Assembly (NCBI GenBank): GCA_013368315.1
Contig: JAACJM010000081.1
Location: 248,001-312,000, forward strand
Length of the DNA stretch: 64,000 nucleotides
Source: Tetrapyrgos nigripes
Taxonomy: Eukaryota; Basidiomycota; Agaricomycetes; Agaricales; Campanellaceae
Direction of reading: 5' to 3'
Shown: positions 1,198 to 55,891 of the stretch, piece by piece
How the letters are laid out: every line of letters starts with the position of its first letter
Numbering within the stretch: position 1 is the first letter of the stretch
The notes under the pieces: model-generated
What the model saw: only the letters and a program-made list of their open reading frames with translations
What the model was told of the DNA's origin: nothing
Databases searched by the model: none
Translations under genes and position numbers: made by a program

Positions 1198-1240
1198 ACG
1201 CATAGTATATAGACAGTACTCACAGAGTACAATGCGTAGT
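1198..1240 (+). repeat. Left terminal inverted repeat of element A
   Basis: Starts ACGCATAGTATA and ends ACAATGCGTAGT. The reverse complement of 16413-16456 matches it in three blocks with a short mismatched middle. Confidence 0.7.
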
Positions 1241-1254
1241 TAGCAGTACTTTTT

Positions 1255-2045
1255 GTCCTGAGCACATACTATACCATGCATTGTACCAGCATTGTAGGTC
1301 TGCTATTCCAATATGCCCTGCACTATGCATTGTATACCCTTGGAGTGAATATATACCATGCATTGTGGGTATACATTCTGCTATGCCTGCTCACTATGCA
1401 TTGTATATCCTTTGGGTGAAATTATAACCATGCATTGTATATCCTTTGGATGATATATACCATGCATTGTAGGTATACCTTCTGCTATGCCTTGCCACTA
1501 TGCATTGTATATCCTTTGGGTGAATATACCATGCATTGTAAGTATACTTTCTGCTATGCTTTCCCACTATGCATTGTATACCCTTTGAGTGAATATATAC
1601 CATGCATTGTAAGTATACCTTTCTGCTATACCTTGCCACTATGCATTGTATATCCTTTGAGTGATATATACCATGCATTGTAGGGATACTTTTTGCTATG
1701 CCTACTCACTATGCATTGTATATCCTTTGAGTGATATATACCATGCATTGTATATCCTTTGAGTGAATATATACCATGCATTGTAAGTATACCTTTCTGC
1801 TATACCTTGCCACTATGCATTGTATATCCTTTGAGTGATATATACCATGCATTGTAGATATACTTTCTGCTATGCCTACTCACTATGCATTGTATATCCT
1901 TTGAGTAGAGATGCACCATGCGTTGTAAGTTCCTACTATACCTTTCAGTAAATATATACCATGCATTGTAGGTTTACTTTTCTCACTATGCATTGCATAC
2001 CCTCAGTGAGTACATACCATGCATTGTGTGTAAGCCTTGCCTTGC
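1255..2045 (+). repeat. ATGCAT-rich subterminal satellite (left)
   Basis: About twenty copies of (A)CYATGCATTGTA alternate with spacers such as TATCCTTTGAGTGATATA and GTATACCTTTCTGCTATGCC, making a higher-order unit of roughly 65-75 bp. Each core is centred on the palindrome ATGCAT. The open frames crossing it on both strands are by-products of the repeat and are not genes. Arrays like this beside the ends of CACTA/KDZ-type transposons usually act as transposase binding sites; that role is inferred here. Confidence 0.85.
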
Positions 2046-2099
2046 CACACATTGTATAACAAGACTAGAAAGACGATAATAATATATTTAGCAGTACTT

Positions 2100-2400
2100 T
2101 ACATGTGAACAGTATTAATAGAATAGGGGGAAAGAAGAAATAGGGGGGATAGGATAATTAGGGCAGAATAGGATACATAGGGGGAATATAAGATAAATAG
2201 AGCGGGATGAGATAAATAGGGAATATAAGATAAATAGAGTGGGATGAGATAAATAGGGGGAATAGCACAAAGAGGAGATAAATAGGACGGGAGATAGGAC
2301 AGATAGATAGGGCGGGATAAAATGAATAGGGCATGCGGGATGGAGAAAAATAGGGCGGGATAGAATGATTAGGGCGGGACAAAGAGATGGGGGTGGGAAA
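2100..2400 (+). repeat. Purine-rich GATAAATAGGG-type simple repeat
   Basis: G/A-rich tract with irregular repeats of ATAGGG and AGATAAATAG, including a near-perfect tandem copy of GGGATGAGATAAATAGG around 2205-2260. It lies directly 3' of the partner gene. No coding content. Confidence 0.75.
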
Positions 2401-2435
2401 GGACTGAATACATATAAATTCCGCCAGATTACTTA

Positions 2436-5400
2436 CTAAACCCCAGCCCGGGACCTTGTAGAACGTGAAGGGGGCTCTTCATCGGTCACTTCACTAAGAG
2501 GACGCTTGGAACCTGGTTTGTGCCTACATATGCACTTCAACGCTTGAATCAAAAACTAGCCTTAATTAAAGCACGTACCTCATGCTCCCATTTATGCATT
2601 CCATGACCCAAACCACATCTTTCACGGCTTCATCCCACCCTCTACGCTGCTCTGGTGTTTTCTGCACCTGAAACCAGTAAAACAGGCACAAAAGGACGGT
2701 AAGAAGTCCACATTGACCCGGCCGTTTCATAACCTCCCATCTATCCTTGAGCTTCTTGTCCTCCAGCCGGTTCTGCACCAATCTGCCCAGGGAATCACGA
2801 ATACGCCAATCAGGATTAATGACGGACCACCACGTCCACCATATACTTTCAAACGCCTCCGCAGATTCCATATCCTTGGGTGGCTCGCTCTGGATTCCCT
2901 TTCCGATTCCACTCCACCATCCAATCAGCTTCGGCCGACTAACATCCGAGAAAAACGCTCGGGGCCCCTTCGGATTGTCAAATCCAAATTTCCTCTCTAT
3001 CTCTACCCATTCCTCCAAGCCATGCATCCATTCAACGCAATGCTTGAGAATGCCCGGAATGCAGAGCGCAACCACTGAGGGACGTTAGACAACAACTTGA
3101 TTGTCTCGTCATTGACGTCATCAGGAACGACGACGTCAGCATCATCAGGGTGACCGCTAGCTGGCGCATTTTTTGACAGCAAGATCGCAGGAGACTCCGA
3201 AGGCGCCGCTGAGGGAGCAATTGGTGGCAAACTCAAATGCTCAAGTCCCTTGGAGTACCCTCCCAAGCCTTCGGTGTCATTAGAAAGAGAGCGGTCACTC
3301 TCTGATGACGTAGGATCAACCCTGGAATCTGTGGTAGAATTGGAGGCGGATGTAGGTGGAGGTGTAAATGCGGGTGAGGAGGAGCTTGAGCCATCGGCAG
3401 AGGAAGTGCCAAGAGTACTGGGAGTATCAGAAGAGGGAGTGGGATGGAATGAAAACGGACTGTGATACTGTGCTTTAGGTGGCTTTGTTGTTGTACCCAC
3501 GAGATATGGAGCCCATGCGTCGTCTATTTTACGTTGTAGCTGCTTGATCTTGACCATATTATTAGTGCGCTGGAAGTCGCTCATGCTACCGTAACGTAGT
3601 TGTGCGATTGTTTCCAAGCGTTCCGACTCCGAGACAGAGTTAAGATACTCTCTTGTCTCATTGTGTAGTAGCTGCTCTCGTGCCTTCTGAAGAACGGGGT
3701 TGGTGGGACGTGGTACAGGTCTAGGCTTTGCAGGAGGATCCTCTGCAGTGTCTTCGGGTTCTTCTTCGTCTCCAATCCAGTCATCTCCCTCGTCATCTGT
3801 CTCAACAGACTCTTTACTCTTCGTCTCAGACTTTCTCGCCTTCTTTCCGCCCTTCCGAGATGCCCCTTTTTCAACGTCTTTTGACTGTTTTCGCTTTCGG
3901 GTTGATTTTGCTGGCTGAGGCTTGTCAACGTCCATAACAAAGAGGGAAGGATCATCCAAAGGATCTAAGCTGTTTGACTGAGCAACAGAGGCTGCGACAG
4001 CATTTGCAGCCTGCGCCTCAAGCTCTGACTCAGTCTGTGGAGCTCTGGAGTTTGCATCTGAGCCGATAGAAGGAGTTAATCAGTACATGATCGCTGTAAG
4101 TATTTAGATACATATTCAGCAAACGTTTGAGGATTTGTGCCCGTCGTCGTTCCAGAACAGATGCTACAGCGAAATAAACAATAAATTAGCCCAAAAATGC
4201 GACTGAGACATTGTGAGCTCACGTCAGTAAAGTAAAGTCCTCCTTTTCATGACCTGGTAGTGGTGGAGCCCCTCCGAGCAGACAAAAGCTCAAGCCAGTG
4301 AGCTGGCAGATAGCATGAAGTAGAGGTTGAATAAACTTGGTGAGATTGGCACGGCAGCTGAAGAGAAAAGTCAGCGTCTATATATAAATAATGACATCAG
4401 CACTTAAACGTCACGAGGAATGTCACCAAATTGGTGTTGTGCCGGATTGAGAACGTACTTGTCACCTTTCATCAACTGCTGGTACGCAGTCAACTTCTCC
4501 TCGTGCTCTGTCGCACTTTCAATCTCAATTCTCCCTTTGATGTCTGCTGGCTCCTTTTCATATAGCTCCGCAGCCACTCGACATTGGAAATCCACCCGGA
4601 ACCGCGACTCGAGACCGGCACTCTGCCATCGAGCTTCAAACTCCTTGAAACATTTCTCTCGGAAATCGGGATGGCTCATGTAATACTTGTGAGGTGGTAT
4701 TGCTATGGGAGCTCGGCTAACCTTGCAGAGGGTCTTGAGGAAAGGTTCGTACACTTTGATGTTAGATCCATTTGTCTTCCCTTTCTGACGATGAAACCAA
4801 TTTTTGAGTTCCTATTATAGTACGCATTAGGTAAATATGTTCATGAATTCAATGACAAACCGACCTTGCGACCTTCCTCCTTGGCATATGCCTGAGCAGC
4901 ATCTCGTTCCGCCTTCAAAATTTTATAACCCTCTGCATCCAGTCCACTTTCCCCTTGTGTTACCAAAACTGTGGCGTGAGGGTTTGACGCTGTAGGCGTT
5001 GGCCTTTCAATAGCCTCGAACTCCTTGGGAACATCATCGGTGTGCCAAGGCCACTTTTGAAACCATCGGGAATAGAATTCGGTAAGGAAACGCGTCTTCT
5101 CCATCTTTGTCTCTAAAGCCAGGTATCCAACCGCAGCTTCCTCCAAATACTCCTTGAAGACACCTTTGAAGTTTCCCGGATTTCCTCCCTTCTTTTTGAG
5201 GACTGCTGGTTGCGGCGTGCTTTTTTTCGTGTCTGACGTAATGTCAGGACCCTTCACAGAGTCAGTTGCCTGGTTTCCTTGATACAGACAAATTAGAACC
5301 TTGGAATACCGTATCACCTGAGTCTTCGAGCCCACCAATCGCCTGACCACCATCTGTAGGCTTGTTAGAAGTGGCAGCTAAGGCATCGGTGGAGATTGTT

Positions 5401-5609
5401 GTTGCTGTGCCGGAGTCACCGGAAACTGTACCAAGTGTTTCACGAGGAGAAGCAGGTGTAGACGCAGCTATAGAAGGAGAGGTTTTATTACCCTCAACTT
5501 CCCCAGCTGGTGGATTGTCTGGTTTGGGAGCCAAGGGAGGTGGAAGTGAGATTTGCATCAACGTAGCATTGGGCTGATCTGCAGGGGAATTTTCGAGGTG
5601 AGAGGACAT
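2436..5609 (-). CDS. KDZ-associated partner protein, copy A
   Basis: Multi-exon gene divergent from the KDZ transposase. The start is ATG at 5609 (MSSHLENSPADQP). A Ser/Thr/Pro-rich stretch is followed by a helical segment containing FKEYLEEAAVGYL and FYSRWFQKWPWHTDDVP, then a middle domain with KNWFHRQ and HKYYMSHPDFREKCFKEFE. Next comes a basic/acidic linker (TRKRKQSK, TDDEGDDWIGDEEEPED). The C-terminal Trp-rich domain has WVEIERKFGFDNPKG, WWSGIGKG and GQCGLLTVLLCLFYWF. A last small exon reads KRPLSEVTDEEPPSRSTRS and stops at 2436-2438. The same order of domains occurs in the genes at 19133-22991 and 43948-46693, each beside a KDZ gene. I do not know a named Pfam family for it. The function is unknown; its position suggests an accessory transposition protein or cargo. 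Exon edges are approximate. Confidence 0.65.
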
Positions 5610-6668
5610 TTTTTTTGGAGAGGTATCATGCGTGGTGGAACTTTAATAAATTTCCTGTTCGGATAATACTACAATACATAGTGTGTGGATTTTGGATTCT
5701 GTTCAGGGTGAGTGGCAACTACTGTGTTTCCAATACAGAACATATGACTCCTATAATGTTGATGTGATGACTCTACAAAGTTGTGAGTAGTAAGTACTTA
5801 TTACTCTACACTACACTACCCATGGTCTGCAGTTGCAGTGTCTGTAGCTCCTGTAAGTTCATCACTCTACATTCCGAGTACTCATTACTCTACACAACCA
5901 TCTTTCGATTGTGTAGCAGTCATGTCTGCCACTTCGCTTTGCCACAGCTCCACGCTTTCTCCATCGGTCATGGTGGGAACTACATATTGATTGGAGCACA
6001 TTCCCCTATGCCCAGCCAAGTTAAATTTGATGATTGGCACCTCATAGATTCTGTAGGGGTGTACGTATGCTGTCAACCAAGTGCCAAAATCGTATGCTGT
6101 GACCTACCGATTATGATAACCTTTACAAATGTAATCATATACCAGGAATACATGTGCAGACCCTAGAGACTCGAAGAAGTAGTTGATATTAATATTTCTA
6201 GGACATCCGAGTCAGTAGAATCTCTTCAGAATGTATTATTTCGCTTACCTTTCACCCTTGGCAATGTCTACTTTGGTATCCTTGGTACATGGTTTCAGCG
6301 TTGACATGAATAATGGGGTGTAAAACAATTTGATTGTAGGTCTCAACAGGGACATGGTCTTTTTATCATTTCTCGGCACCCTCTACTCTCACATTCAGGA
6401 TCAAAAAATTTAGTAAACAGTTCCCAAGTGTCCTCGCCACTTACCCTCTACTCTCGATCATCGGCAGTTCACTGGTCCTTTTAATCTCCTTCCTTGCTGG
6501 AGACCCTACATGTGACATACTCCTGTCTGTCTCGCGAATATTTTGCCACCCTATTAATCCTTGCTCAAAACCTACATACAACATACTCCTGTCTGTCTCG
6601 CGTCAATGAAAATTCTCAAATCATATTCAAATCATCGGACAATATCTTTGCGAGGAACAAAAAAAAAA
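5610..6668. other. Spacer inside element A
   Basis: No convincing gene. It holds a direct repeat of ACATACTCCTGTCTGTCTCG (about 6517 and 6582) and short TTACTCTACAC repeats at 5805-5900. It probably includes the promoter of the partner gene, but I see no defined motif. Confidence 0.4.
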
Positions 6669-7627
6669 CTACACAAGGTCATCATTTGCAACGCTACTGC
6701 TCTCGGTGCTGAGATCCAAACGCGAGAACCACTCAGAAGCCTCCACAACAGAGTCAACTTCACGTTGTTGGCTTCTGAGCCCACGTCGAGCAGCCTCAAG
6801 CATGACCTTGTCGACTTCCTCCCTGTAATTGTATTAAATAATTCCTGCGACTCGAGATCAATAAAATAAAATTCTTACGGCGTGCCAAAGACTCCATTTT
6901 GACCTTCAACACTTACAGCCCAAAGCAGTTGGCGAGGAGAATTGATGAATTGTCGTGGTGGTGACTCAGGCCCGTAAAAAGCGGTGGCCACACGCCTTTT
7001 TGATGGACTTCCTTGATTACGTGTGGTGGCAACAGGCCTAGTCAACGGACTATTCAATGAACTTCCCCGACTACGAGTCACTAGAATTGGTGATCAATCA
7101 TGGGTATGGGCTGTAGGTGATAGAGCTGACTTATGCTGATTTCGACGAGGTGGAGAGACTGAGCGCGGCAGTGGTATGCTTGGAATTGGGGTGTACGTTG
7201 TACCATCCTGGAAATCTGCTGGATGGTCATGGTGGCTGAGGCAATGCTGCTTCCAGGCCTCCAATGCGTCGTCCCATTTCTTGAAACTTTGATGGAGTGC
7301 GCCGCTAACCTTGTTTGTTCTGCGTCTGGCTTCACTCCTGGTATGAGTCAATGTCAAATTTTGCCAAGTCTAGAGCATACACTCACCAGTCCCTGTAGGT
7401 CCCTGCCCCATCTCCTGTATACACATTGTAGAATTTCGTATGTTGGAGAGGTTTGTTGCCCCTTCAGTCTCCCTGGTGCTATGTCCAAATAGTTGAGGGA
7501 CACAGGTTGAACGACGAGTCTGCATAGTATTGAAGTTGAAGTGCTGGTTGTTGTCGACAGATGAAGTAACAGTTGAATTGTCACTGTCACTGTCGGAATG
7601 GATGTGGACAAGCATGTGGCTTACCAC
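6669..7627 (-). pseudogene. Broken hypothetical gene of element A
   Basis: Reads from ATG at 7627 (MVSHMLVHIHSDSDSD) through a Ser/Thr-rich N-terminus. A spliced block follows with SEARRRTNKVSGALHQSF and KKWDDALEAWKQHC. An in-frame TGA at 7094-7096 comes after SPTAHTHD. The same frame then continues with LLWAVSVEGQNGVFGTP and, after an intron, REEVDKVMLEAARRGL and SEWFSRLDLSTESSS, stopping at 6669. The WAVSVEGQNGVF block with a helix after it faintly resembles the RNase H1 N-terminal/viroplasmin fold seen in the cargo of elements B and C, but I would not assign it. The single stop between two coding-like halves points to a recent nonsense mutation. Confidence 0.45.
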
Positions 7628-8291
7628 GTGAGTCTAGAGCTCGACCTAATGAGCGTGTATCAGTGACTTAATCTATATTCCTCACAGTTTTCTACTTCTA
7701 ACAATTTGTAAGGTTGAGAGTACTTAATTATAACAAAGAATCAAAGTTGCTTTCTTTCTTTCTTACTGTGAATTGTTGAATATACTGTAATTCAGAGGTG
7801 ATCTATTTTATGTGCCAATAGCCACTGCATTAAAGTACGAGCTCCAGAGGACCTGAAGGATTTAATAGTTCATGATCCTTGAGAACAATATATGATAGTT
7901 ATTTGAAATGTTCACGATGAAAATATGCTTTTTGGAATGTACAAAATAAGCTACAAGATGTAGCAAACTTTCGTGAATCATATTGAGCTGTACCGAGACT
8001 TGCTCTGAGAATATGACCACTTATACTCCAAGACAGTTTGCAGAATCAAAGTTACAATATTCTATGGATCAAATATATAATCCGAAGAAGTATCTAAGCC
8101 TCGCCGGGTATAAAATAAAGAGACAAAATGTAGGACGGAGGGATTGCATGGCGAGATTCAGTCACTCATGGTGAGATTCAGTCAACGAGAAAATAGGGGC
8201 TTGTACACTGCCACTGCTGCCAAAACGTCTTGATTATAAAACGGTGTTGTCTTTGACCCTTGTACACATTTCAGTCTCCCCCATCTCCTCC
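7628..8291. other. AT-rich divergent intergenic region
   Basis: Lies between the minus-strand pair and the plus-strand genes of element A. It is AT-rich, with no gene and no clear repeat. It probably holds divergent promoters, but no specific motif can be supported. Confidence 0.35.
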
Positions 8292-8723
8292 ATGGCAACA
8301 TATCATGCTCCTGATGAGCTCCAATTGCATCTTACAGGTCTAGATGAGATTGTATGGCTTCGGGCGAGGGGAATAGAAGAAGAGGAACAGGAGCCATACA
8401 TAGAGATTCGGCGCAAGGAGCGACAAAAATGGAAAAAATCGTTGCAAAATGCGAAATACTACCAAAAGTGAGTGATATATTCTGCTATCTTTGTAGACTA
8501 TCTAATCTAATTATCTTAGAAATGTGATGAGCTCCTTGCCCGAGCTAGGGATTGCAACATCAAGCATAGGCAAGCCTTCAAAGAACTATCAGATCTTGAA
8601 CAAGACAAAGTACAGTCCCGACAAAGACACTCTGCATTTGTGTACTGTCTGCGGAACCGAGAGCTTTTGGCGGCAAAAGAAAAGGCTCGTCGTTCACGAA
8701 AGAAACAGTCTGAGTAAGTGTAA
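8292..8723 (+). CDS. Small basic coiled-coil protein, copy A (partial)
   Basis: Starts MATYHAPDELQLHL and runs to RRKERQKWKKSLQNAKYYQK, followed by a GTGAGT donor and an intron ending TTAG at 8519. The phase-consistent second exon reads NVMSSLPELG and gives an ordinary-looking tail. Another frame of the same exon (from 8523) reads CDELLARARDCNIKHRQAF through LLAAKEKARRSRKKQSE. That looks more like the coiled-coil exons of the copy B and C genes, which also have a SL.YYQK block just before the same intron. Either an indel or an unusual splice separates the two. The C-terminal helical domain of copies B and C is missing. Probably the truncated copy A member of that cargo family; function unknown. 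Confidence 0.45.
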
Positions 8724-8784
8724 GTAAAACAAGCATGTTGAACGTGTGTGCTGACTCTGACAGGGGGATTGCTTCCACTTCTAC

Positions 8785-8985
8785 GTAGATTTCTCTTTGA
8801 AGTTAATTGACATCCAATGAAAATTATTTTGTTATGTAACTGGCCAACGCCACCCCTGCGCCAGCTAGTAGCCCTGAGAATCGACTTTTACGTATGTTTC
8901 TGTTTGGAGTTAATTTACGTTCAATCAAAATTATTTTATCATGTAACTGACCAACGCCACCCCTGCGCCACCCAGTAATTCCGAT
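8785..8985 (+). repeat. Tandem duplication of about 107 bp
   Basis: Two diverged copies share AAAATTATTTTRTYATGTAACTG and CCAACGCCACCCCTGCGCCA (8819-8865 and 8928-8973). It lies between the small basic gene and the KDZ start, so it may sit in the KDZ promoter. No function is assigned. Confidence 0.75.
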
Positions 8986-9120
8986 GATGTGGCTTTGAGC
9001 CGAGAACACGGTACGGGACCCTCGGACAGCTATTTGCTGGGTTCTCACTGATACTGTAGTACACATTCTATTTGATCTAGGTATAAAATGTCTCAAATGC
9101 AATCCCTATGAATTAAAAAA

Positions 9121-12100
9121 ATGTCACTGCGTAAGCTTGCAAAGGCAGCTCGTATTGTCAGACCGCCTCCCTCTGCCACATCTCAAACATTTACCGATTT
9201 ATCTGTCTCTACAGACGGACGGCGTACCAAACGCAAGGAAGTTGGAGTGCAAGACCTGCCGAAAGCATTGAAGAAGCGCAAGGAGGAGTCAAACCTTGTA
9301 TTGGAATCAGAGGAGTTTGTCTATGGGGATGCGTATGAGTCAGCGTTCTCGAAAATCCCTGACAGAGATCTGGAAGGAATTTTGGCCACTACCTGTGTAG
9401 TCGAGGAGGTCAAAATCAGAAGACGGTACTTAACTTCAGTGAGTAGTGTATTGAATTTTAAACTATTCCATTCATTTCTCATTTTAATATATTTAGGATC
9501 GTCCTTTGCAAGAATGGACACCCTATCGTGATGAATATTTGGCAGAGATGATCCGGAATGAAGGACGGGGTGATTGCTCACAAGATCTATGTCTCCATTG
9601 TCAAAGAGACCAGGCTCAACAACCATCCGCTGCTCCTATCTATCGTTGCAGGGACTGCATCTTTTTGGGACTCATGTGCGAGGACTGCTGTGGGAATTAT
9701 CACAAGTATCGTCCTTTTGATGTAGTCGAGGTGCGTGTGCTGGTTTTTATGCTCTTTTCTGGTCTCAGGGATTAATTTAGAAATGGAACGAGAAATATTT
9801 CGAGGTTGTCCCTTTGAAGAACTTGGGTGTCAGGATACAGCTTGGTCATCAGTTTGGATCAGATTGCCTAAATCCCCGCCCCGTGTCTAATTTCACAGTA
9901 ATGCATACCAACGGCATACATCAGGTCAATCTCAGCTACTGTGATTGTGCTGACAAGATCAAAGCCGGCGAATGGAGGCAGCAGCTGATGCGCAGACAGC
10001 TCTATCCAGCCACTCATGTGGATCCTCGGACTTGTGCAACGTTTGAGTTGGTGAATAATTTCCACGTATTGACGTTGCAGGGCAAGGTCACGCTTTATGA
10101 TTATTATAATGGACTCTAGAAGTTGCATAACAATGCGGGACTCAATAAAAACAGGGTGCGTCAATTTTGATTAGTACTTAATGGTTTTAACCTGACAGAT
10201 CGTTCAGGACCAGTATAAGTCTTTCGCTCGTATTGTCCGGGAATGGCGGCATCTTAAGATGGTGAAACGGGCCAGTAGAGGGAACGATGGGGCCAGACCT
10301 ATAGGGGAAACTCGGAACGGAGAATTGGGTATTTGTTGCATTGCGTGTCCTCGAGTGGGGGTGAATCTGCCAGAGAATTGGTTAGATGTTGTCGAGGACA
10401 GGAAGTAAGTTGATTTTCTACTCATGTTAACAGTGTTTTCTGACTGACTACTTATCTTAGGTATAAGTATTGGCTATATCTAGCCATCGACGCCTGCTTC
10501 CGACTCAAACGACGGACAGTGTCATCGGAAGAACGGGACCCAGGCTTGGGGACAGGGATGGCATATTATGTAGAGCAAAAACCTTTCAAGGAATTTTTGG
10601 CTACAATTAAGGACCAGGATGAGGTCAGCATGAGTAAAAGAAATTTATTTCATGGGAACTAACATTCCTTCAATAGATGTCGACTTGCAATGGATTACAA
10701 ACTCTTGAACAAGCAAATTCCCGAAATTCCCGTGGATATGCTTCTTCAGGCTGTGGCTTGGGAGTGTGTGCTCGGCATGAATTTGTGCAGGTAAATGGCG
10801 TTGTCGATTTGCAAAGAGGAGAAAGGTATGTAAAATCACTTGTATTGACTGAGTTACTGAATAGGATCTACAGATATGCCAACATGGATTATTGTCTGGC
10901 ATCGTTACTCCGCCATCATCATGCGAGCTTGACCAAAGTCCAATCATACGACATTGCTTGTCAGTGGCACAAACATCTGATCAAGCATCTGTTGGAATTG
11001 CCGCCACTAGTACGACTTAATCTCGCATTACACATAATTTATTTTGTCGTTCCAAAACTCCACATTTATGGACATCAGCTGCTTTTTCAACTTCAGTTCT
11101 CCCTTAATTGGTTGTGGGGTGCTGGAAGGACAGACGGCGAGGGTATCGAGAGGCCATGGGCTCATATGGGACCTGTTTCGACAAGTACCCAGGACATGGG
11201 ACCAGGATTGCGTCATGATACGTTAGACGATCACTGGGGTCACTGGAACTGGGTTAAATTGGTTGGATTAGGTTAGAATGATTACGTTTCAGCTTCCCAT
11301 TGAGTTGAGTTGATAATATTGTTTTACAGTCGAGGACAGCCAATCTCGACAGTTTTCTTGACTGAATTATTGGGGACCGAAGAGCAGCTGAGAAAGGACG
11401 AAAAGTGTGTTTTTAGCGTATTTAGGACATTCTGAAAAGATTTCAACAAGCCGATTTTCTTCAAAGTCAATTTTGATATTTTAACCCCAAAAATTGGCAG
11501 TACCGGCTAAAAAAATCGGGAAAAATAGAGAATAATGCGGAAAATGCTCTTTTACTAAATCTGAGTACAATAGCGTCAAAAAACAGATATCTCAACAGTC
11601 AATTTTGCTAAACAGATAAGGAAACTAACATGTAGGCTACATAGTACCCCAAGGTTCGAGTTTTTTCACCCTGCGACACCCAGCACCCACCCAGCATGGC
11701 TGGAACACCCGCAAAACGAAAACAAAACACAACAGGCCTTCGAAACCAACATAAAGATAATACCTGCACGCCTCACTCGCCAGAAGACCCAGTGTTGACA
11801 TCCAATGACAGCAAATCAGACGGAATGAACACTTCACGAAGCCACGCGAGTCTCGCTGATGCATCAAATGAAGTTCTTGACGAATGTTGGATTCGAGAGG
11901 AGTTGACTGGTGTTGGAAGATGGTTTGGTTATGTGGAGGACTCGAGCCAGAGGACCTGAAGAGCTGGGAAGAGGATCCAGGTCTTGCTGTTAGAGAATTG
12001 GGAGGAGAAAGAGTTTGAAGATGAGATTATTGCACAATTTCATGACGAGTCGTATTTTCATATGAATGACTTTCAGTCCCAAGCATGGGGTTCATTTTTT

Positions 12101-30302: not shown

Positions 30303-30334
30303 TAGTAGGGTCCATATTTACATATCGGCTGAAA

Positions 30335-42348: not shown

Positions 42349-42646
42349 TTGCTTATGACTAGAGTGAGTGTCTTCGTTCTACTTCTGTTGATATATGCAT
42401 TGATGTTGTTTCCAGGTTTCTTTGCCTTGCCCCGATTGCTTGTTTCATCGACTCTCTTTCCTTTCCCATTGACATCCAGATCATTTTTTCTTCTCTTCGG
42501 TGAGTTTATTCTTTTACTCGTCCTGTCCTATCGCCTTTGATTGACGTATTTCTCTCATGATCATTACTCGACACTCTGCCAGTGAATACTGCAACTGGTA
42601 CTAGTGTACTACCACATGATATCGAGGCAATGCTGTACCAAAAACT

Positions 42647-42697
42647 AGATATACCTGGGGTGACCCCAGCACCCATAATTATATATACATGGGGTCA
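42647..42697 (+). repeat. Left terminal inverted repeat of element C
   Basis: Begins AGATATACCTGGGGTGACCC. About 38 of 50 positions match the reverse complement of 55842-55891 by eye. Confidence 0.7.
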
Positions 42698-43007
42698 CCC
42701 CATGGGTGGAGTCTTTAGGGGAGATATCTAGATATGGCGTGGGGTCTCTGGTGGGTCCATCGCTTTTTGGTTTGCTGCCCTTTGGGCCGGGCCATTTTGC
42801 CTTATATAATCCACCAGATCCCAGATTTATGCGCGTCACTGTCACACTTGGTGGCCTTTATTGCCTTTAATCCTTTTCTTAATTCCTAATCCTTTTCCAT
42901 GCTTATCAATGTGTCTCGTTTCTTATCAACTCTCTTATCTCACTCCGTCTTTAGGGTTACCATCGACTTGGGGTTAGACGACGACTTGTTTCACCACTGA
43001 GTTAACT

Positions 43008-43561
43008 ATGACTACCTGTACAAAGTCCTTCACACCCCGAACGCTAATCTCCACGTCACCCAACAGAGTCATTATGACTGGCGCTCAGCATGCGTCCACT
43101 GGAACCAGTGTTGAGCTAGACGACACGCAGGAATGCACGCATGTCATCGGTGAGCCTTCTCATCGATATCGCAGTAATGTTTTCAACTCTTTCTCATCGT
43201 CTCTACCGCCAGCATTTTCTGAAATCAACAGACCTATTCAGACGACTACTGCTACAACTGGCGACACTTCAGGCAACTCCACTGAACTAGAAAAAGCCAT
43301 CAACCTGTATGACTTGATACGCGTGCTCGAGTTGCGCTCGTACGTAGTTGTTTCATTGTCAACCTTCATTCCTAACTCACTGTTTTATGCTTTAGGTTCC
43401 TTCGTCTTCCGTTGTTGTACCCTCATTCTCATTCCCCTCTTTGTCAATACATCCACCCTTCCATCCCTAAAGACACTGTTGCACACGGTGAAATCGTAGA
43501 GACTGACTGGACCACCCATGTAGCTGCCCACTGCCCTCATGATACAGTTGCCAAGCTGTAG
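43008..43561 (+). CDS. Small hypothetical protein at the left end of element C
   Basis: Starts MTTCTKSFTPRTLISTSPNR. After an intron near 43149-43222 it reads TTTATTGDTSGNSTELEKAI and NLYDLIRVLELRS. After a second intron (GTACGTAG..TTTAG) it reads FLRLPLLYPHSHSPLCQYIH and GEIVETDWTTHVAAHCPHD. The stop is at 43559-43561. About 150 residues with no known domain. It converges on the partner gene inside the terminal repeat. Coding status rests only on the coherent splice pattern. Confidence 0.35.
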
Positions 43562-43611
43562 ACATTGTATTACCCATATAAACACATCGCCTTGTTACTA
43601 AATACATAATA

Positions 43612-44100
43612 TAATAAAAAGAGAACGACTTCCGTTCGACCGTTGAAGTCCAACGGTAGTGTTCATATTCAACTTATTAAACTTGAGTGTATGTCACGGT
43701 ATAGTATCTAACTTTACCGTGCAGGTTTCCTTCCACCTTTGGTGCTAGAGTCAGCACCGTCTATCTGATGGCACGTTACATGTTCTCCGACCTCTCGTTT
43801 CACCTTCTGTTCAGCCGCCTGCTTAGATCATGGCGGCCTAAGTCCACAGTTCACATAATATAAAAAGAAAACACTTCCGTTCGACTGTTGAAGTCCAACG
43901 GTAGTGTCTATATTCAAATTAAACTCGAGTGTATGTATACTCCATATCTAACTTCGTCGTTTCCCTCGACCCTTGGTGCCAGAGACTTTTGAGTGAGCAC
44001 CGTTCTGTTTCTTGGCACGTTTCAGGTTCTCCGACCTCTCGCCTTGTTCCGCCTTCCGTTTAGCCGCCTGCTTAGACGACGGCGGCCAGATACCAAATTC
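43612..44100. repeat. Tandem duplication of the 3' end of partner gene C
   Basis: 43625-43850 and 43870-44095 are related with an offset of 245 bp. They share ACTTCCGTTCGACYGTTGAAG, CTTGGTGCYAGAG and GTTCTCCGACCTCTCG, then AGCCGCCTGCTTAGA. The right unit is the true last exon end and 3' flank of the partner gene; the left unit is a decayed duplicate. Confidence 0.85.
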
Positions 44101-46693: not shown

Positions 46694-47689
46694 GACCAGA
46701 TCAAGCAACAAGCAAAAAAAAAAGAGATGATGTGACGGGCAATTTGTTGCGAGCACTATATATGACGTGTGGCGTCACATCACGTGGAATATCAGCACGC
46801 ATGCATGGTTCGTTTGTTTCATTTCTTTCCTTTACATCCTCTCTTCCCTCTTCTTTTGGGTTTGTCTCCATTCCAGTAATCGCAGAGTGAGTATTTTCTT
46901 GTATTCTTACTATCTTTCCGTTCTTCATCCAGTAGTTTGGACAGTTAGCCCCCTTCCCAGGAATTACGTTTGAGCACTGTTTCCATTGCTGCAATCTATC
47001 CTCCTTCGCGTCCTCTACCAAGAGAATGCTTGCTGTACTGTACTAACCTCTTGTCCTCTCAAGTTCTAGTCCTCTCAACTTTAGCTACCTTCATGTCCGC
47101 AAGACTTGTGAGTTTTCCCAACTACCTTTCACTTCAGCAACCTGACTCACCTATCAGACAACCGTTTACGGACACTGTTATCAGCCCTTTATTGCAGCGC
47201 CCGATTATTTCAGTCTCCAAGGCACAGCACATCGCGTCATTGACCAGCACCCGGACTCTTACTCTCCACATGGCTCCGTTACTATCTCGCTCCTCAGTTC
47301 TCCATCATCCTCTAGGCCACCTTCTCCTCTCCTATGTCCTGCTCAGAATATCCTCCTTTCTATTGTACTCCCAATAACTTCTGCAAACCCAATGTAACGT
47401 CTACAGTCACATCAAAAAAAAACACAACACAGGCAAAAACGCAAGCAGCCCCGTTCTTCAGATACCCAAGGCTCGGCAGGTTCATCGAACTTCATCTGAG
47501 GCTTGGCAAGTCTATGTTACTCTTATCGTAACCACTACGATCCCTGACAGTCTTTTTCTATTCCTCTAGCTTCTGTTCCCCTCATGTAGGTAAATCTTAT
47601 GCAAGACTCCAGTGGATACCAGGGCAATCTGGATCCCCGGAAGCCGGCTGAACCGCGTGTATAATCCTTGATTTCCGAGAGCTGATCAG
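46694..47689 (+). other. Divergent spacer with a weak plus-strand gene candidate
   Basis: A possible exon set near 46970-47397 reads APDYFSLQGTAHRVIDQHPD and SYSPHGSVTISLLSSPSS, stopping at 47395-47397. Other frames are also open, and no domain is recognisable. The rest is non-coding. The region separates the partner gene from the repeat array and the coiled-coil gene, a longer gap than in element B. Confidence 0.25.
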
Positions 47690-48245
47690 GGATGGAAAGT
47701 AAGTACATACTTTCCACTGACTAACCTCAGCCACTGATGGAAATTTCGAGCTGCAATATGCCCTCTCGTCGACAAAAACGGCCGTACGTTCCCTCTTTTA
47801 GTTAGATTCCCAATGGACGACCCAGATTCGTCTGTCGATGTCGTGGAACAGGCTGAAAAGTAAGTACATACTTTCCACTGACTAACCTCAGCCACTGATG
47901 GAAATTTTGAGCTGCAATATGCCTCTCGTCGACAAAAACAGCCGTACGTTCCTTCTTTTAGTTAGATTCCCAATGGACGACTCAGATTCGTCCGTCGATG
48001 TCATGGAACAGGCTGAAAAGTAAGTACATACTTTCCACTGACTAAACTCAGCCACTGATGTAAATTTCGAGCTGCAAAATATGCCTCTCGTCGACAAAAA
48101 CGGCCGTATCTTTCCTGTTTTAGTTAGACTCCCAATGGATGACCCAGATTTGTCTGTCGATGTTGTGGAACAGGCTGAAAAGTAAGTACATACTTTCCAC
48201 TGACTAAACTCAGCCACTGATGGGAATTTCGAGCCGCCACAAGAC
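47690..48245 (+). repeat. 161-bp tandem array (3.5 units)
   Basis: Units begin GTAAGTACATACTTTCCACT at 47699, 47860, 48020 and 48182 (periods 161, 160, 162). The last unit is cut off. Each unit includes GTCGACAAAAACRGCCGTA, a CTTTTAG acceptor-like site, a small frame coding for PMDD.DSSVDVVEQAEK, and then a strong GTAAGT donor. It looks like an amplified exon with its introns. Confidence 0.9.
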
Positions 48246-48549
48246 CCTGCTCAAAACTTTCACTCAGCAATACTTACACTGTTTTCTTTTTAGCTTCTCA
48301 TTCATGCAGTCTTCCTCAGGGGCCCTCGTGCTGTATTACGACAATAGTTCTCAGACCCAGATATCAATGCCACGAGGAGAACGAGCTGAGTGAGTGCGAA
48401 ATGACGGCTAGGGAAATGGCAGTCAAGGATGGATACATGTACTATTCCACTCTACATAACCTCCATGCCCGACATAAGTATCTAATCATAGTGCTGAATT
48501 CGATACCTACAATACATTATTTTCATTTCGTATGACAAGCCAAGTCAAG

Positions 48550-48870
48550 TACGAATGAGTCGGCACCTAAGAGATACGAGGCTACTTTAGACTTAGCCGA
48601 TTATTCACAGATGGCTCGCAAAGTCGAATTCCCTTCCTCAGACACTACAAAAGCCACGTTTGCTCTGAAACTTGGCAGAGATACTTTCTAAGATGCTCTA
48701 AGTATAAAAAAGAAATGAGTCGGTGCCTAAGAGGCTACTTTCGACTTAGCTGAATATTCACAGATGGCTCGCAACGTCGAATTCCCTTCCTCAGACACTA
48801 CAAAAGCCACGTTTGCTCTGAAACTTGGCAGACATACTTTCTAAGATGCTTTAAATATAGAAAAGAAAAA
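48550..48870 (+). repeat. Tandem duplication of about 155 bp
   Basis: Two units share GAATTCCCTTCCTCAGACAC, AAAGCCACGTTTGCTCTGAA and ACTTTCTAAGATGCT. They lie 5' of the coiled-coil gene in element C. No coding function seen. Confidence 0.9.
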
Positions 48871-48985
48871 CTGAGTTGCTACAGAAAAAACTGAGGAATT
48901 TATAAAAGTCAAGTGAAAAGCCATATTCCACCTTCACTTGTTCAATGACCGACGCGACTTATGTACTACTCCTTCCTCTTCTGCA

Positions 48986-49761
48986 ATGACTCGACCTAAA
49001 ATCCATAAGACCAAACAGGAACGACTGCTCGCCAATCGAGCCAAGAGTCTTCGGTACTATCAAAAGTGAGTGTTTACCTTTCTCTAGTACTTGCTATGTG
49101 ACCATTCGTTCACAGAAACAAAGATGACATCAATTACAAGAAACGTCAAACTTATCAGGCCCAAACCCAGCTTCAGGCTGAAGAGGAGTAAGTATTAGAG
49201 CAGAGGTCCTTCACTTTTATACTTAAACAATCCGCAGAGCTAAGCAACGCAAGAAGAAGAGGGAAAACTTCTGGAAGGAAGACGAGATAAGGAGTAAGCT
49301 GTCTCGTTGGACTGAAAAGTTTGCCATTCATCTGCCTGTTCTTTTCAAAGCACTCATATGTATCATTCTGCAGATGTCCTATTAAAGGCATGCGTAGTAT
49401 ACTGGTCTCACTAAACCGAGCCACCAACTATTCACCATCCACCTACCTAGCCAATGTTTACACTGCTTATGAACACTGGCTTCAAGACCCAAAGGAAAAC
49501 CCTTCTCCCGTGCATGAAGCTGCCGAAATATTTGACAGTCTCCAGAAGGCTTCCAAGCCTTTTTTGAACGCCGTCCTTCAAGAATTTGGATGCACCCATA
49601 CATATTTCGAGGCAGAGGCGATCGACCGGAGGGTTGAAAATGTTATCCGATGCTTGGAGGACATGGAACTTGCCCAGATGGAAGGCAAGCTGTGGCTCAT
49701 GTACCGCCTTAAGCGGTTGCGATTCCAGATGCCTGCGATGAAAGATTTTATTGATGGTTAA
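48986..49761 (+). CDS. Small basic coiled-coil protein, copy C
   Basis: Starts MTRPKIHKTKQERLLANRAK, then SLRYYQK and an intron (GTGAGT..CACAG). NKDDINYKKRQTYQAQTQLQ follows, then a second intron and AKQRKKKRENFWKEDEIRS. The C-terminal domain has GMRSILVSLNRATNYSPSTY, EAAEIFDSLQKASKPFLNAV and VENVIRCLEDMELAQMEGKL, with LKRLRFQMPAMKDFIDG at the end. It matches copy B in intron position and in both halves. The junction near 49295-49374 is not fully resolved by eye; the obvious donor gives a different phase from the downstream frame. A DNA- or transposase-binding role is inferred only from the basic coil and location. Confidence 0.6.
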
Positions 49762-49892
49762 GATGTAGATTTACCTTTTTCTATAGAATAGGTCTGATGG
49801 CGATCAGATCTGAAATACATATATATAAAACGGAGAAATGAGTACAGTTCTTTTCTTCAGACCACCACGACCTCGCTCCAGTGCCCTGTCGA

Positions 49893-51111
49893 GATGGTCT
49901 CTGGTGTTCACTACATTACCCTTCAACCTGGAGAGGGTAAGTTATCTTCTTATTTTTTGACCAACGTTGACGACGTTTTCTAGTTGCCGTTGTGACCATG
50001 GCGCGCCCTGGGGTTTCAGGGGGTGTTGTAGACCTTTGTGCTGACTGTGCCTCACATCCCGATCCAGCCATTGTCGATGGCCCTCCAGTCGTACAACTTC
50101 CTCCCTCCCATACGCAGACTCCTCCTCCTCCCTTTTCTCAGATCGACGCCACAGGTCCTTCCGAGAGTAATTAAGGAATGTAAGTAAATATTAGTATCAT
50201 CTATTCGAATGCCACAGCAGCTGAATACTTGTTCTAGAAACATGGAGGTGGTTCAAGGTTCTCAACGCCCTGATCTCACCCCTACGGACGTGGATACGAC
50301 TACCAATGATGACCTCCAGCTGGCTAATGCAGTAATGAGGGCCCTTCAGACCACCGAACGACCTCAGGCCAACTCGTCACCCTCTGCAGGTCTCTCTCGT
50401 CCACTTCTCCCTGTCCAATCTTCCCCAGCGACACTCGAAATTCGAAACCTGCTCCCGATCCGTACTCTTGTTTTTTTCGCATACAATGAACGTCCCAGTC
50501 CTGCAGCCCTCCGTGCTACTTGGCCTCTGGATCCTTGGGATGCAACGTATGCTGTATTTCGAGGTTCTCGAATTGGAATGTTTCCCTCATGGTGAGTTTC
50601 TAACTTCCCAAAATGGATCAGTTCCTGACTATTTTTACAGGGACATCGCACAGGCCTTTGTCCTTCATGTGTATGTCCTTCATGTGTCTGGCACCAGCTT
50701 CAAGAAATTCAAGAAATTTTCGGACGCGATGTTGGAGTATGATAGGTGGTACTTCGGAACGACTCTTGCCCCAACTATTGAAGTATGCGGCGCCGTCAGC
50801 AACCCACTGTTTCAGTTTGATGATCCACGCTTTGACTGTGATCTCAAAATTGTGGTTCCACCAGATGATTTACCGTTTGCCATTCATGCTGAGGACGAGC
50901 TCCCTAACATGCAGTCCTATGTTTCCAAGTAAGTCAAACTTGTATTTGATACTGGGTTCAACGTACTGAGAAATTCAACAGTGACTATACAGTAGCCAAT
51001 GGTGTTGTGGCTTCCAATGTACCTGGGTCTTCACAGGAACAACATGGGTCTGGCGGCGTAGTGTACATCTCCAATACCTCGGACGAGTCCGAGTCAGATG
51101 GTGGAGCTTAA
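49893..51111 (+). CDS. RNase H1 N-terminal (viroplasmin-like) domain protein, copy C
   Basis: Starts MVSGVHYITLQPGE. After an intron comes ARPGVSGGVVDLCADCAS and a Pro-rich linker, then a short unclear intron near 50166-50238. NMEVVQGSQRPDLTPTDVD, a disordered stretch and VFFAYNERPSPAALRATWPL follow. YAVFRGSRIGMFPSW comes next with an intron exactly after the Trp, as in copy B, then the GTSFKKFKKFSDAMLEYDRW helix. A second domain has NPLFQFDDPRFDCDLKIV, and the tail is acidic (NTSDESESDGGA, stop at 51109-51111). The Y.VFRG...G.F.SW core is the signature of the RNase H1 N-terminal double-stranded nucleic-acid-binding domain. No RNase H catalytic domain follows. It probably binds RNA/DNA hybrid or duplex during transposition (inference). 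Confidence 0.65.
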
Positions 51112-51378
51112 TAGTCTTGCGTACTAGTACTAGTTGTCCTTGTCTCTAATTCGAAATTCCGTGTGGCTTTTTTTGGATTGGTCCAGGCCTAGGCCATCGG
51201 ATCCGACACGTGTGTACTGATAATGTCATGTCAACTGAGACTTTCGTCTCTTCACTCATCTGAGTCTCTTAGATGTTGTGACGGCCGTTGTTTCGCCAAA
51301 TGTAATTCGATACGGCTGGGACAATCCTCCGGGTGCTGAGCCTTGGCACCTCTCACTCATTCCCACATTCCCTCCCAC

Positions 51379-54300
51379 ATGCCTCCCCGTAAACGCAAGC
51401 GAGATGAAGAAGACGACTGGTACGAAAATATAGTTGGAACGTCTACTACCCTTGAAGTCTCGCAAGACGATCTATGTTTGAACATGCAGAGCCAGCAGCT
51501 CTCCCAGGATGATTACCATGCGTACTCTTCCGAGTTGGAGGACGGCAGTGACTACTACAGCGAGGACAATCTCAATGAATCGGCTGAACACAACGCATAC
51601 GCTGACAATGATTCCTGGTCTGCTGTCTGGGATTCCGGAGTAGTAGAGAATGATATAAGTCTGCAGAGACTGAGTGATACTCAGAATCCAGACTCTGGGA
51701 ACATAAGAGTACGGCGAGCACGAAACGAGGACTCGGTAAGTGGCCATGTGTTGTGACTCTAATGCCTTCTCAACATCTGCTTTTCGGATAGGATAACCCT
51801 AATCGTGCTTGGATTCAGTACCATGAGGAGTTCCTGGAGGAAATGCTGTGGGTTGAGGGAAGACGAGGGATGGGTCAGAGATGTAGTGGATGTAGAGGTT
51901 CTGAGGAGGTGTGCTACCGCTGTAGCGATCAAGAATGTGTTGGGGCAGGAATGATGTGCCAGCTTTGCGTAGTGAAGGCTCATAGCAATCTACCATTGCA
52001 TTGGATTGAGGTGCGAGTCCGGCTCAATCTATGGTCTTTTCTATGCTGATAATGTGTTATTAGAAGTGGAATGACAAGTTTTTCGACACAGTCTCTCTCC
52101 GCAGTCTTGGATTGACTGTCCAGCTCGGTCACCTTCCTGGGGAAATCTGCCTGCTGGAATGCCCAGCAGACCACGACTTCACAGTCTTACACACCAATGG
52201 GATCCATAACGTTGCCGTCCTCTTTTGCAGATGCGACGTCACGTTGGAACACCGGGTGCAGCTCTTACGAAACCTATGGTATCCAGCTACACCAAAAGCT
52301 CCTCAGACAGCCACAACCTTTAGCTATCTTCGGCAGTTCCAGCATCTCAACTGTACGGGCAAGATGCCACCGTATGACTATTACTGGGCTTTGGAGATCA
52401 TGACCTTAAGTCGTCTCAGAGCCAAGCCGAAGGTCAGTCTAGCAAAATACACATCAGGGTTTATGAGTTACTAATCTGCCTACAGGACCGATATCGAGTT
52501 TTCTTGCGAGCTATCTTCCAGTGGCGTCATTTGAAGATGCTTAAGCAGGCAGGACGTGGTCACTCCCCGGGAAAGGCGGCCGGAACCTCCTCTGGTGAGC
52601 TGGCTCTTTCATGTCCGGCTTGTCCTCAACATGGAAAAAATATCCCGGAGGACTTGAGCATTATCGCGCCGGAACTATTGTGCGTATCATTTCCTCGATC
52701 TCTGATTAGAACGATGTAACTGACCTCATAACGATTTAGTTTTCTCTATACCCAGTTCTTGGCGGTGGACGCAAATTTTCGCCTTCGCAACAAGATTGTA
52801 TCCAATCAATATCGTAGCCCCATACTAGGAGATGGATGGGCATACATGGTACCAAGTGGGCCTTACAAGGAACACTTGGCAAAGCATACCACAGAAGAGG
52901 ATGTGAGTTCTCTTTTTTTATTCCGTGACGATGTACTTAGAAAGTGTTTTCACTCAGATGAGCAGCTGTTCTGGATTTGCCGCATTGTTCTTGGCGAACG
53001 TCAAGAACGTCAAGGGACTCCGAGTGAGTGGTGTGGGTGGAGTATGCTGTGGCAGACATCGGGTATGGAGGGGGAATGGTTTAGGAGATCTCCAGAACGG
53101 CGAAAGGTGTGTCTTGCTATCGAGACTTTCCTATATAAAGCTGATCATTTATTCTTCACTAAGGTATTCCAATATGGACTTTATTTTCTGGTCAGCAATC
53201 AAAGAAGAGCTCTACTTGTGCATCGTCATTTCCTACGATATCTCGTGCCAGTGGAGCCGAAACTTCTGGTCACGAATGGAAGGTCTGGATCCTTCTATCA
53301 GGGTCAAGTATACCACAAGGGGAATCATTTTTATGGTTCCAAAGTTTCACTTGCGGGCGCATCAACCGGCTTGCCATATTCCCTTCAGCTTCAACTTTGC
53401 TCCGGGCTCCGGTCAGACACACGGCGAGGTTGTGGAAGAGGGGTGGGCCCAAACAAACAAGGTTGCGGCACAAACGAAGGAAATGGGTCCTGGAACGCGT
53501 GCTATGGCTTTGGACGATATTTTTGGCTTCTGCAACTGGCAGACGATTGAAAATCTCGGTGTGTATCAATACTATTATTAACTCAATGGTTACTAATGGG
53601 GAGTATCAGCAGACAAAGTATTGGGCAAACGGCTCATCGAAGCCGTGAAAGAATTTGATGAGCACTACGAGGATTTCCGGAGGTTTGATAGTGGGCTCGA
53701 GAAGGCTCTGACAAGGGAAGTGCTCGATGGGTGGAAGCAGATGGTGCTGGATTGGGAAGAGGACCACAGTCGCTTTTGTCCTTATGAGGTATCCGGGACT
53801 GGTATGTCTTTGGCTTTTTGTCTTGGCTACTCTTTCTCATATACTAACATCATTGATAGAAAGCAACGAGAGTCTCTTCAAGAAGATGCAACTCAAATTG
53901 GCGCAGGAAGAGCATCAACGTCTGGTGGCCAGTCAGTGGCCTCACTCCTCGAGTCTAGTGGTCTTTATCACTCAGGGTATAGAGCTTCAAGAGAGCCAGT
54001 ATGTTCTTTGTTCTGTTAAGTCGAAAATCATTATTATTAACTACCAAAGTACAGGCGAGCTCTTGAACTATTCATTCTGACCAACAAATTCCCCACCCCT
54101 ACCCAGCAGCTGGATCTTCACAAGAGACGCTCTTCCCTTTTCAAACGAATCGTCCATTTCCGCTCTCTTCAAGCTCTACTCATGCCCCGACTTTCGGACG
54201 TTCTCTCCCCTGACCACATGAAACATATTGAAACCCCTGACAGTGACCGTCCCGAGAAGATCCGACTCTTTCTGCCATCGGAGGTCGGTACTGCCAGTGC

Positions 54301-55250
54301 AAGAACCCATGCATGCGTCTCAGAGCTTTCAGAGACGGAAATTACTCTGCGTGAATCAGAAGCTTGTCAGGCGTTAGAGGGTGTTAGGCAAGGCCTCCGT
54401 GCGAGAACAGCTACTACTCGCTACAAAATTCGGAATGTTACGGGACAGGTTGGTAGTACCAGGGCCAGCGGTGTTCTCCGTCAAGTCGACATCCGTATCC
54501 ATTCCCAGAAGATTCAGTACCAGCTGGCACGAGATGCTCTCATTCGATTGGGTGGACGGGGCACGTGGGAAAAGGAGTTGTTGGAGTTGAAAGACTCCGA
54601 CGTCGTTGGACTGAATGAGAGGAAATTGACTGAAGAGGAAGCTGCACAACGAGAGGAGCGGAGGAAGCGAATTGGGGTGGATCTTGACGACGAGGATGAA
54701 GATGTCTACCTAGAGGATGAGCAGATTCTCGCCCAGATTCAAGGGGAGTCGTGTAGGGTATTATCATGGATATGGAACGGTGTAACTGTTAATAAAGGGG
54801 ACGATGAGTTTCGAGATGGTGCGTATGTTATCTTGTGGTCTTGTTTGCTTTCTAATATTGCCTTATACAGTGGTTCGGGTAGAATGGTGCAAAACTCGTG
54901 CGAGGATGCTTCGTTGGAAGGAGGAGGTGTTGTTATTGACAGAAGAAATCAAGAGGATGCATGATTTTGCCCTCTGGAAAGGGGAATGGTGGTTGAAACG
55001 GAGGGTGGGCGAGGGGGAAGGGCTATGCTCAGTTAATCTTTCGGCAGAGCTTGCAGAGGGGTTGGACGCCTATGCCTGGCAGCAAACGCAATTCCAGGTT
55101 GACGGAGCATTGAAGGTCCAGGCCCGCTGGAACGAGCTAGCGGAACATGCCAAGAAGGTCGTGGCTCGGATTCGCAACCTTCCGACTATTTCTTTGGAGC
55201 TGGACGTCGACGAGATGATTAGTGCCGCACAAGCAGAACAGGACATGTAG
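51379..55250 (+). CDS. KDZ-family transposase, copy C (apparently intact)
   Basis: Starts MPPRKRKRDEEDDWYENIVG, with an acidic head and then a CxC2 cluster (CSGC, CYRCSDQEC, MCQLCVVKAHS). FTVLHTNGIHNVAVLFCRC, DRYRVFLRAIFQWRHLKMLK and VDANFRLRNKIVSNQYRS follow, then MSSCSGFAALFLANV, CCGRHRVW, GLGDLQNGERYSNMDF and SYDISCQWSRNFWSR. VPKFHLRAHQPACH, GQTHGEVVEEGWAQTN and KEMGPGTRAMALDDIFGF are next. The long helical C-terminus has GVLRQVDIRIHSQKIQY and RVEWCKTRARMLRWKEEV, stopping at 55248-55250. About eleven short introns join without a stop. The presumed D, D and E of the RNase H-fold core are present. CARH, usual in KDZ proteins, is CGRH here. The gene closes element C after the coiled-coil and RNaseH1-N genes, all on the plus strand. 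Confidence 0.85.
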
Positions 55251-55402
55251 GATAGTATGTATTTGTATTGATAGTGACAGCTAGTAGTTGAAAGAAGGTT
55301 CCGAGGAAGACAGCCCGTAGAGATGGACCCCACAAGAGATCTAAATGTACCCAAGGTGGCCAAAAGCTGCCAGTCATATTGAAAAGTGAAAAAATACATA
55401 TG

Positions 55403-55473
55403 TACCCTATCGGGATCGAACACACGCACGAGGAAGAAACCGTAGACACTATTACCAACTACGCTATCAAGCC
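55403..55473 (-). other. tRNA-like sequence (degenerate)
   Basis: The minus strand has a perfect A-box (TAGCGTAGTTGG) and a B-box core (GTTCGATCC) 33 nt apart in a 71-nt stretch, the size of a tRNA. The acceptor and T stems do not pair, so it is not a working tRNA. It is either a decayed tRNA or the pol III head of a SINE, in the 3' flank of the KDZ gene inside element C. Confidence 0.3.
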
Positions 55474-55519
55474 ATCTATTATTCCCATAGCAGCGAGATG
55501 TTTACTATGCGATTGTGTG

Positions 55520-55620
55520 CACGGTATCTACTGTTTCCGTCGGATTATCCACGGCTCTGTCCGATGGAGAACGGTATCTGTTTCCGTCGGATTATCACGG
55601 CTCTATCCGATGGAGATTAT
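55520..55620 (+). repeat. Short tandem duplication
   Basis: Two copies of GGTATCT..GTTTCCGTCGGATTATC followed by ACGGCTCTRTCCGATGGAGA, offset by about 50 bp. Non-coding, close to the right end of element C. Confidence 0.85.
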
Positions 55621-55841
55621 CACGTGGTTCTAGTCTGTGATGGGGATAATTGTTTATTTGCGTTGTGACACGAATATTGGATTGATGGCCCCAGAAAAGG
55701 AAATGTGGACTGGTCCATGGGTTACATAATGCAAGAAAACTCACCTGGACACCCGAATCAGGAAATGTGCTCTGACCCCAGCATATATCAAGATGCCACT
55801 GGGGTCATTCTCTTATTGCTGAAAAAAATGGGACCTGGCCA

Positions 55842-55891
55842 AACCCCACGGATATCTAATTATGAGGTGTGGGGTGACCCCACAGATATCT
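55842..55891 (-). repeat. Right terminal inverted repeat of element C
   Basis: Ends GTGACCCCACAGATATCT on the plus strand and is the inverted partner of 42647-42697. Confidence 0.7.

Follow-up and report, generated by a model that had tools for sequence, protein, structure and literature searches.

The stretch of DNA analysed here (the window, 64,000 nucleotides) comes from the basidiomycete Tetrapyrgos nigripes and corresponds to positions 248001-312000 of contig C80 (JAACJM010000081.1) in a genome of 98.5 Mb and 587 contigs. It contains three KDZ transposons, named A, B and C, in each of which the transposase gene is accompanied by a divergently oriented multi-exon partner gene (P), a small basic gene in what we call the CC position, and a gene (R) with an RNase H1 N-terminal domain (Table 1). 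That there are three separate KDZ elements had been proposed earlier from the letters alone (the sequence-only reading), and this was borne out by the element boundaries, the target site duplications (TSDs) and the KDZ (PF18758) and CxC2 (PF18803) domains, both of which scored above the cut-offs in A, B and C.

Table 1. Positions of elements A, B and C and of their genes in the window
Feature	Position	Strand	Remarks
Element A, KDZ transposon with inverted termini, decayed	1178..16474	+	15.3 kb; TSD and uninterrupted host-repeat copies
A, partner gene P, multi-exon	2566..5609	-	HMG-like middle domain (predicted) 4458-4811; C-terminal domain 2566-3051
A, RNase H1 N-terminal gene R	6881..7445 (about)	-	PF01693 35.8 bits, E 9.6e-9, hand-spliced segment; beside P
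A, small basic gene in CC position, two exons	8292..8714	+	position; motif and exon end compared with B and C
A, KDZ transposase exons, broken by insertion	9497..14537	+	CxC2 9814-10140, KDZ core 10872-11249
Nested 1415-bp insertion in the KDZ gene of A	11325..12739	.	100% identical copy at C31; inverted ends
Element B	18132..31088	+	13.0 kb; 7-bp TSD GAAATGT; breakpoints common to five other copies
B, partner gene P, six exons	19133..22991	-	1199 codons open; HMG-like domain (predicted) in exon 3 (21215-21660); C-terminal domain 19310-19903
B, accessory gene X, matched part	23226..24087	-	sequence match
B, small basic/helical gene CC	24507..25287	+	first exon 24507-24587, main exon within 24757-25287
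B, RNase H1 N-terminal gene R	25473..26123	+	domain about 25734-26039, one intron; PF01693 25.7 bits, hand-spliced
B, KDZ transposase	26857..30302	+	CxC2 27162-27491, KDZ core 28270-28641
Element C	42624..55914	+	13.3 kb; 7-bp TSD TGATATC; breakpoints common to second copy C199
C, partner gene P	43948..46693	-	sequence comparison with B
C, small basic/helical gene CC	48986..49761	+	direct comparison with B
C, RNase H1 N-terminal gene R (part)	50339..50932	+	domain about 50470-50761, one intron; PF01693 25.6 bits, hand-spliced
C, KDZ transposase	51792..55250	+	CxC2 52097-52405, KDZ core 53150-53536

A, B and C are bounded mobile units. The break points of the five other copies of B, which are 97-99% identical, lie no more than a few bases from the end points of B, and the second copy of C (contig C199, about 98% identical) has the same end points as C. 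A 7-bp TSD was present around seven of the eight B and C copies examined, the one without it being B284. A is flanked by the 9-bp repeat TGGTCGGAG at 1169-1177 and 16475-16483, which can alternatively be regarded as an 8-bp repeat plus a chance base; the host repeat hit by A is intact at seven other places, where the matches of the two flanks of A overlap by 9 bp. The left end of B can be aligned with its right end, and likewise for C, in each case with a score above all 200 shuffles, and the two ends of A align with a score of 40 (shuffle maximum 26). The ends of A gave no alignment above shuffles with the ends of B or C, thus the statement of the sequence-only reading that the terminal repeats of all three differ completely is correct for A versus B and C. 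It does not hold for B versus C, which have the termini 5'-GAGGCRATG ... GGGTG-3' in common, starting with GAGGC and ending with GGGTG; of 200 shuffles, one reached the score of the left-left alignment of B with C, and one that of the right-right alignment. Arrays of the motifs ATGCATTGTA and ATGCATGGTA occur on both strands near the two ends of A (1280-2041 and 14743-15921), and the motifs were counted 38 times in the two terminal stretches of 900 bases and 8 times inside. These arrays are possible binding sites for a protein encoded by A. As a general binding site, subterminal motif arrays had to be rejected: A has such arrays, B only AT runs and C none.

A is decayed, its KDZ gene being interrupted by a nested insertion and its P gene containing a frame change near 3040. 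On the relative C132 the matches break off at one side of the 1415-bp insertion and continue at the other, 2 bases apart there. The complete identity of the insertion with its copy at C31 means that it was probably mobile recently.

Comparison of B and C revealed matches of P, CC, R and KDZ in the same order and on the same strand. Five of the six exons of the B partner gene match in C, the low-complexity exon 2 being the one without a match; for CC both ends of the gene match, and for R one exon. The order in A differs from that in B and C, with R on the minus strand beside P, thus the earlier statement that order and strands agree applies to B and C and not to A. Profile-profile comparison identifies the P of A as a relative of the B/C-type P: the E values for the two domains were 1.3e-8 and 5.8e-6, as compared with 0.71 and 0.23 for mismatched controls. 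It must be noted that this link became clear only after A-type relatives had been added to the profile; single A sequences compared with B-type profiles by hhalign gave unconvincing results for the P segments P3 (probability 2.5, E 0.019) and P2 (probability 8, E 0.0042). The CC-position gene of A did not match the CC of B and C by profile; when compared with the end of the first CC exon, it has the motif ER...KSL...KYYQK at the exon end in common with them. The proposed common set of KDZ, divergent P and small basic gene is upheld for B and C and extends by profile to the P of A; the CC-position gene of A did not join it in the profile comparison. A search of the protein database for relatives of CC yielded none. 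A bZIP interpretation of the CC N-terminus was dropped, as Pfam had nothing over the cut-off.

In the protein database P of B and P of A had one relative each, Dendrothele P0002 and Tetrapyrgos P0003, respectively, both without gene context. In Dendrothele P0002 the accessory gene X and P are fused in one predicted protein; X was looked for in C and not found. The middle domain of P is predicted to be HMG-like from weak structural matches (in the viral library HMG-box proteins ranked 2 and 8 with E values of 0.26 and 1.7). Its segments from A, B and C had no Pfam HMG match at E values up to 10, and a search of PDB sequences produced no match for the domain. Segments with stop codons (P3 of L031, L046 and L053, P2 of E282 and E23) were left out of the alignments used for structure prediction.

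The RNase H1 N-terminal gene had been assigned to B and C only. The hand-spliced segments of B and C do exceed the curated PF01693 cut-off of 21 bits, and so does that of A, whose R gene had been missed; a clue to it was Tetrapyrgos P0003, in which PF01693 is found near the start of the predicted protein. A six-frame search of the genome with PF01693 detected only one gene (G000:C15:680689-680873), which is probably the host RNase H1, presumably because the R genes are split by introns and diverged, and for this reason spliced segments were tested instead. Such intron-split R genes may be under-annotated.

As a rule, KDZ elements are identified from their transposase only. To see the companions at the scale of the genome, queries were built from the cargo of B and A with KDZ excluded, and their matches were compared with the transposase loci obtained by merging the best 150 of 173 KDZ matches (150 of 345 candidates scored) and 150 CxC2 matches (150 of 209 candidates scored). 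This gave at least 202 loci, whose 10-kb surroundings make up 4.17% of the genome; the KDZ core of C286, for instance, lies outside these matches, yet it is present in the DNA. Within 10 kb of these loci were 50 of 54 CC, 30 of 33 R, 39 of 50 P2 and 36 of 54 P3 matches, 35 of 52 matches of the A-type P and 20 of 25 of X, as well as 29 of 33 matches of the A-type R and all 10 of the A-type CC-position gene. These counts are inflated by copies of one family (the de-duplicated sets comprise 7 to 11 families), and they were set against the 4.17% genome share only. Some of the P genes without a KDZ neighbour sit at contig ends (C411, C191, C453, C440, C479, C60), others do not. The companions are located upstream of KDZ with near-fixed strand and side, except CC and the A-type R, which occur on either strand, always upstream. 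The spacing between R and the KDZ core is narrow, with a median of 2.24 kb and an interquartile range of 2.18-2.38 kb (28 hits).

With an upstream limit of 15 kb, 32 of the at least 202 loci had P, R and a CC-position gene, and at 107 no companion was detected. The 32 do not include element C of the window, whose CC came to light only when the elements were compared directly. The full sets occur in three gene orders, represented by 19, 7 and 6 loci, the 7 using the A-type CC-position gene, and P recurs in all three. A further KDZ element lies just outside the window (G000:C80:329115-337725); its CC and A-type P are not on the same strand as KDZ but on the other one. In elements similar to it the gene order is the third one, and R shares its strand with KDZ.

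Cargo distances correlated with KDZ distances in Mantel tests, and after removal of near-duplicates the correlation was weaker but still beyond permutation; the segments had been collected at a tblastn E value of 0.001 or better, and pairs with P2 or CC segments shorter than 80 amino acids were excluded. The groups E23+E188+E257, C+E209+E226b, E134+E51 and the E18a group are clades in both the KDZ and the P3 trees, whereas the trees disagree in the B+B2 grouping and in the place of the E51/E134 pair. Evolution is faster in P than in the KDZ core: with near-duplicates removed, P3 differences were 0.40-0.80 and KDZ differences 0.10-0.40. The companions diverge in part together with the transposase. 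The two checks suggested with the sequence-only reading, whether the cargo lies mostly away from KDZ genes and whether cargo and transposase are congruent, were run in this one genome; most cargo genes adjoin KDZ in near-fixed orientation, and the divergences are correlated. Random capture is therefore a poor explanation, as the earlier reading had claimed.

We think that the KDZ transposase travels with P, the CC-position protein and R, and that together they likely move or maintain the element; we would put the probability of this at about 0.6. What we infer is a joint action of the companions in transposition, including the order of the steps and the contacts between the proteins. The predicted HMG-like middle domain of P would act on the transposon ends, bending or bridging them and thereby allowing the KDZ transposase to pair them. 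R would keep the complex attached to RNA-DNA hybrids, which would arise most simply when the element or the target is transcribed, and CC would be a DNA-binding or assembly adaptor. A comparable role is played by HMGB1 with Sleeping Beauty and with RAG, where, according to the passages cited, an HMG protein bends the ends to help pairing (PMC7827188). There HMGB1 is a host protein, whereas the HMG-like protein considered here would be encoded by the element, and P would do for the element what HMGB1 does for Sleeping Beauty; the analogy concerns the way of working only.

If the companion set is fixed, families of fungal proteins that lack a Pfam name would belong to one and the same transposition system, and anyone annotating the elements, assaying their activity or using KDZ as a genetic tool would have to include all companions. 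An HMG-type bender brought along by a transposon would be the element-encoded equivalent of the HMGB1 that is otherwise required from the host, and an RNase H1-N protein would open the connection of transposition with RNA-DNA hybrids to direct tests. A bolder version, that KDZ elements encode a complete, self-supplied transpososome made up of the transposase, its own HMG-type bender and a reader of RNA-DNA hybrids, which steers transposition to R-loops or keeps the complex on the transcribing element, and that they would thus be eukaryotic cut-and-paste elements whose activity is guided by hybrids, seems doubtful to us.

The companions might instead form an anti-silencing or expression module: the transposase would work alone, P would make chromatin accessible, and R would bind hybrids or double-stranded RNA to weaken RNA silencing. 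In favour of this, any function that benefits the element would lead to the same co-inheritance. KDZ elements elsewhere carry TET/JBP dioxygenases, proposed in the cited part of the source to counter methylation (PMC12730594), and the RNase H1 hybrid-binding domain is described as binding RNA-DNA hybrids in the passage cited (PMC10639055). Among the open reading frames scanned, which represent part of all reading frames, Pfam identified no TET/JBP dioxygenase. Since P, the companion present in all three orders, is predicted to be HMG-like, end-pairing fits slightly better, and we regard the module as possible, though less likely than a joint role in transposition.

The companions could also be passive passengers that an ancestral KDZ element picked up a single time and that have been inherited without function. 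The ratio of nonsynonymous to synonymous divergence (dN/dS) was calculated for 18 pairs, in 5 of which synonymous change was saturated. The seven measurable P3 pairs gave 0.13, 0.20, 0.23, 0.26, 0.36, 0.64 and 0.72, the first two with dS of at least 2.0 and thus near saturation; the values were 0.40, 0.57 and 1.2 for P2, and 0.14 (dS 2.6), 0.53 and 1.6 for CC. These values point to purifying selection on P3; for P2 and CC they do no more than suggest it. Several recent pairs are near-neutral (P3 C/C199 0.72, P2 E209/E226 1.2, CC E18a/E79 1.6) and A is decayed; these observations speak for passengers. On the other hand, five of the seven P3 pairs (0.13-0.36) and one CC pair (0.135) have low ratios, three of these six at dS of at least 2.0, and the set has outlasted three rearrangements of order and strand, which makes mere passengers very improbable. 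It is still less probable that unrelated transposable elements heaped in the same islands make the families only seem linked: the window is indeed rich in other elements (Plavaka, the 1415-bp insertion), but in A, B and C the companions sit between the TSDs of one element, and their orientation is near-fixed and the R-KDZ spacing narrow.

A, B and C have the marks of KDZ transposons, namely PF18758, a cysteine cluster before the KDZ core and flanking TSDs. Accessory proteins encoded by the element next to a catalytic transposase are found in En/Spm (TnpA, TnpD) and MuDR; to our knowledge those proteins are unrelated to the proteins of A, B and C, which form a three-companion set with RNase H1-N. 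Additional KDZ-encoded proteins, including one with a divergent HMG domain, are reportedly mentioned in the abstract of Iyer et al. 2014. The sequence-only reading regarded the partner set as undescribed: R, CC, the recurring P/CC/R set, its three gene orders and its co-divergence were not found in the open-licence literature searched, whereas the HMG-like domain of P may perhaps be known from the work of Iyer et al.

KDZ elements, their cysteine clusters, their TSDs and TET/JBP cargo are already described in the passages cited (PMC12730594, PMC7641404, PMC12810828, PMC8290104). Kyakuja elements are characterized there by a 7-bp TSD, CA..TG termini and the absence of terminal inverted repeats (PMC12730594, Kojima 2025). 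B and C resemble them in the 7-bp TSD, but their termini are GAGGC..GGGTG and their left and right ends align, so by this partial description they fall outside Kyakuja. For Zisupton an 8-bp TSD is given (PMC12730594, passage cited), and terminal inverted repeats count as a further mark; A has inverted termini and a TSD of 9 (or 8) bp, the length of which is near that of Zisupton, the comparison being by description only. The Cryptococcus elements KDZ1, KDZ2 and KDZ3 are about 9-11 kb long, were seen to insert, and have TSDs that measure 8 bp for KDZ1 and 4-8 bp for KDZ2 and KDZ3; they have CxC1, in contrast to the CxC2 of A, B and C, and the passages cited name KDZ and CxC1 domains only (PMC12810828). 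As in A, B and C, a PF01693 (RNase H1-N, viroplasmin) gene is located inside a mushroom transposon in the Pleurotus Helitron helpo1.3, which belongs to another transposon class and whose PF01693 gene is called captured in the part of the source cited (PMC4289320).

At 47690-48245 element C contains a tandem array in which a unit of about 160 bp is present four times; every unit has a GTAAGT...CTAA...CAG stretch resembling an intron, and the array aligns with the copy C199 in shifted registers. Between B and C there is a Plavaka transposase (34946-36772, minus strand; PF18759, E 3.3e-21), whose frame starts with a C2H2-like stretch. On the plus strand at 60237-61415 lies a host gene for a protein kinase with a UBA_2 domain, which resembles the SNF1/AMPK catalytic subunit.

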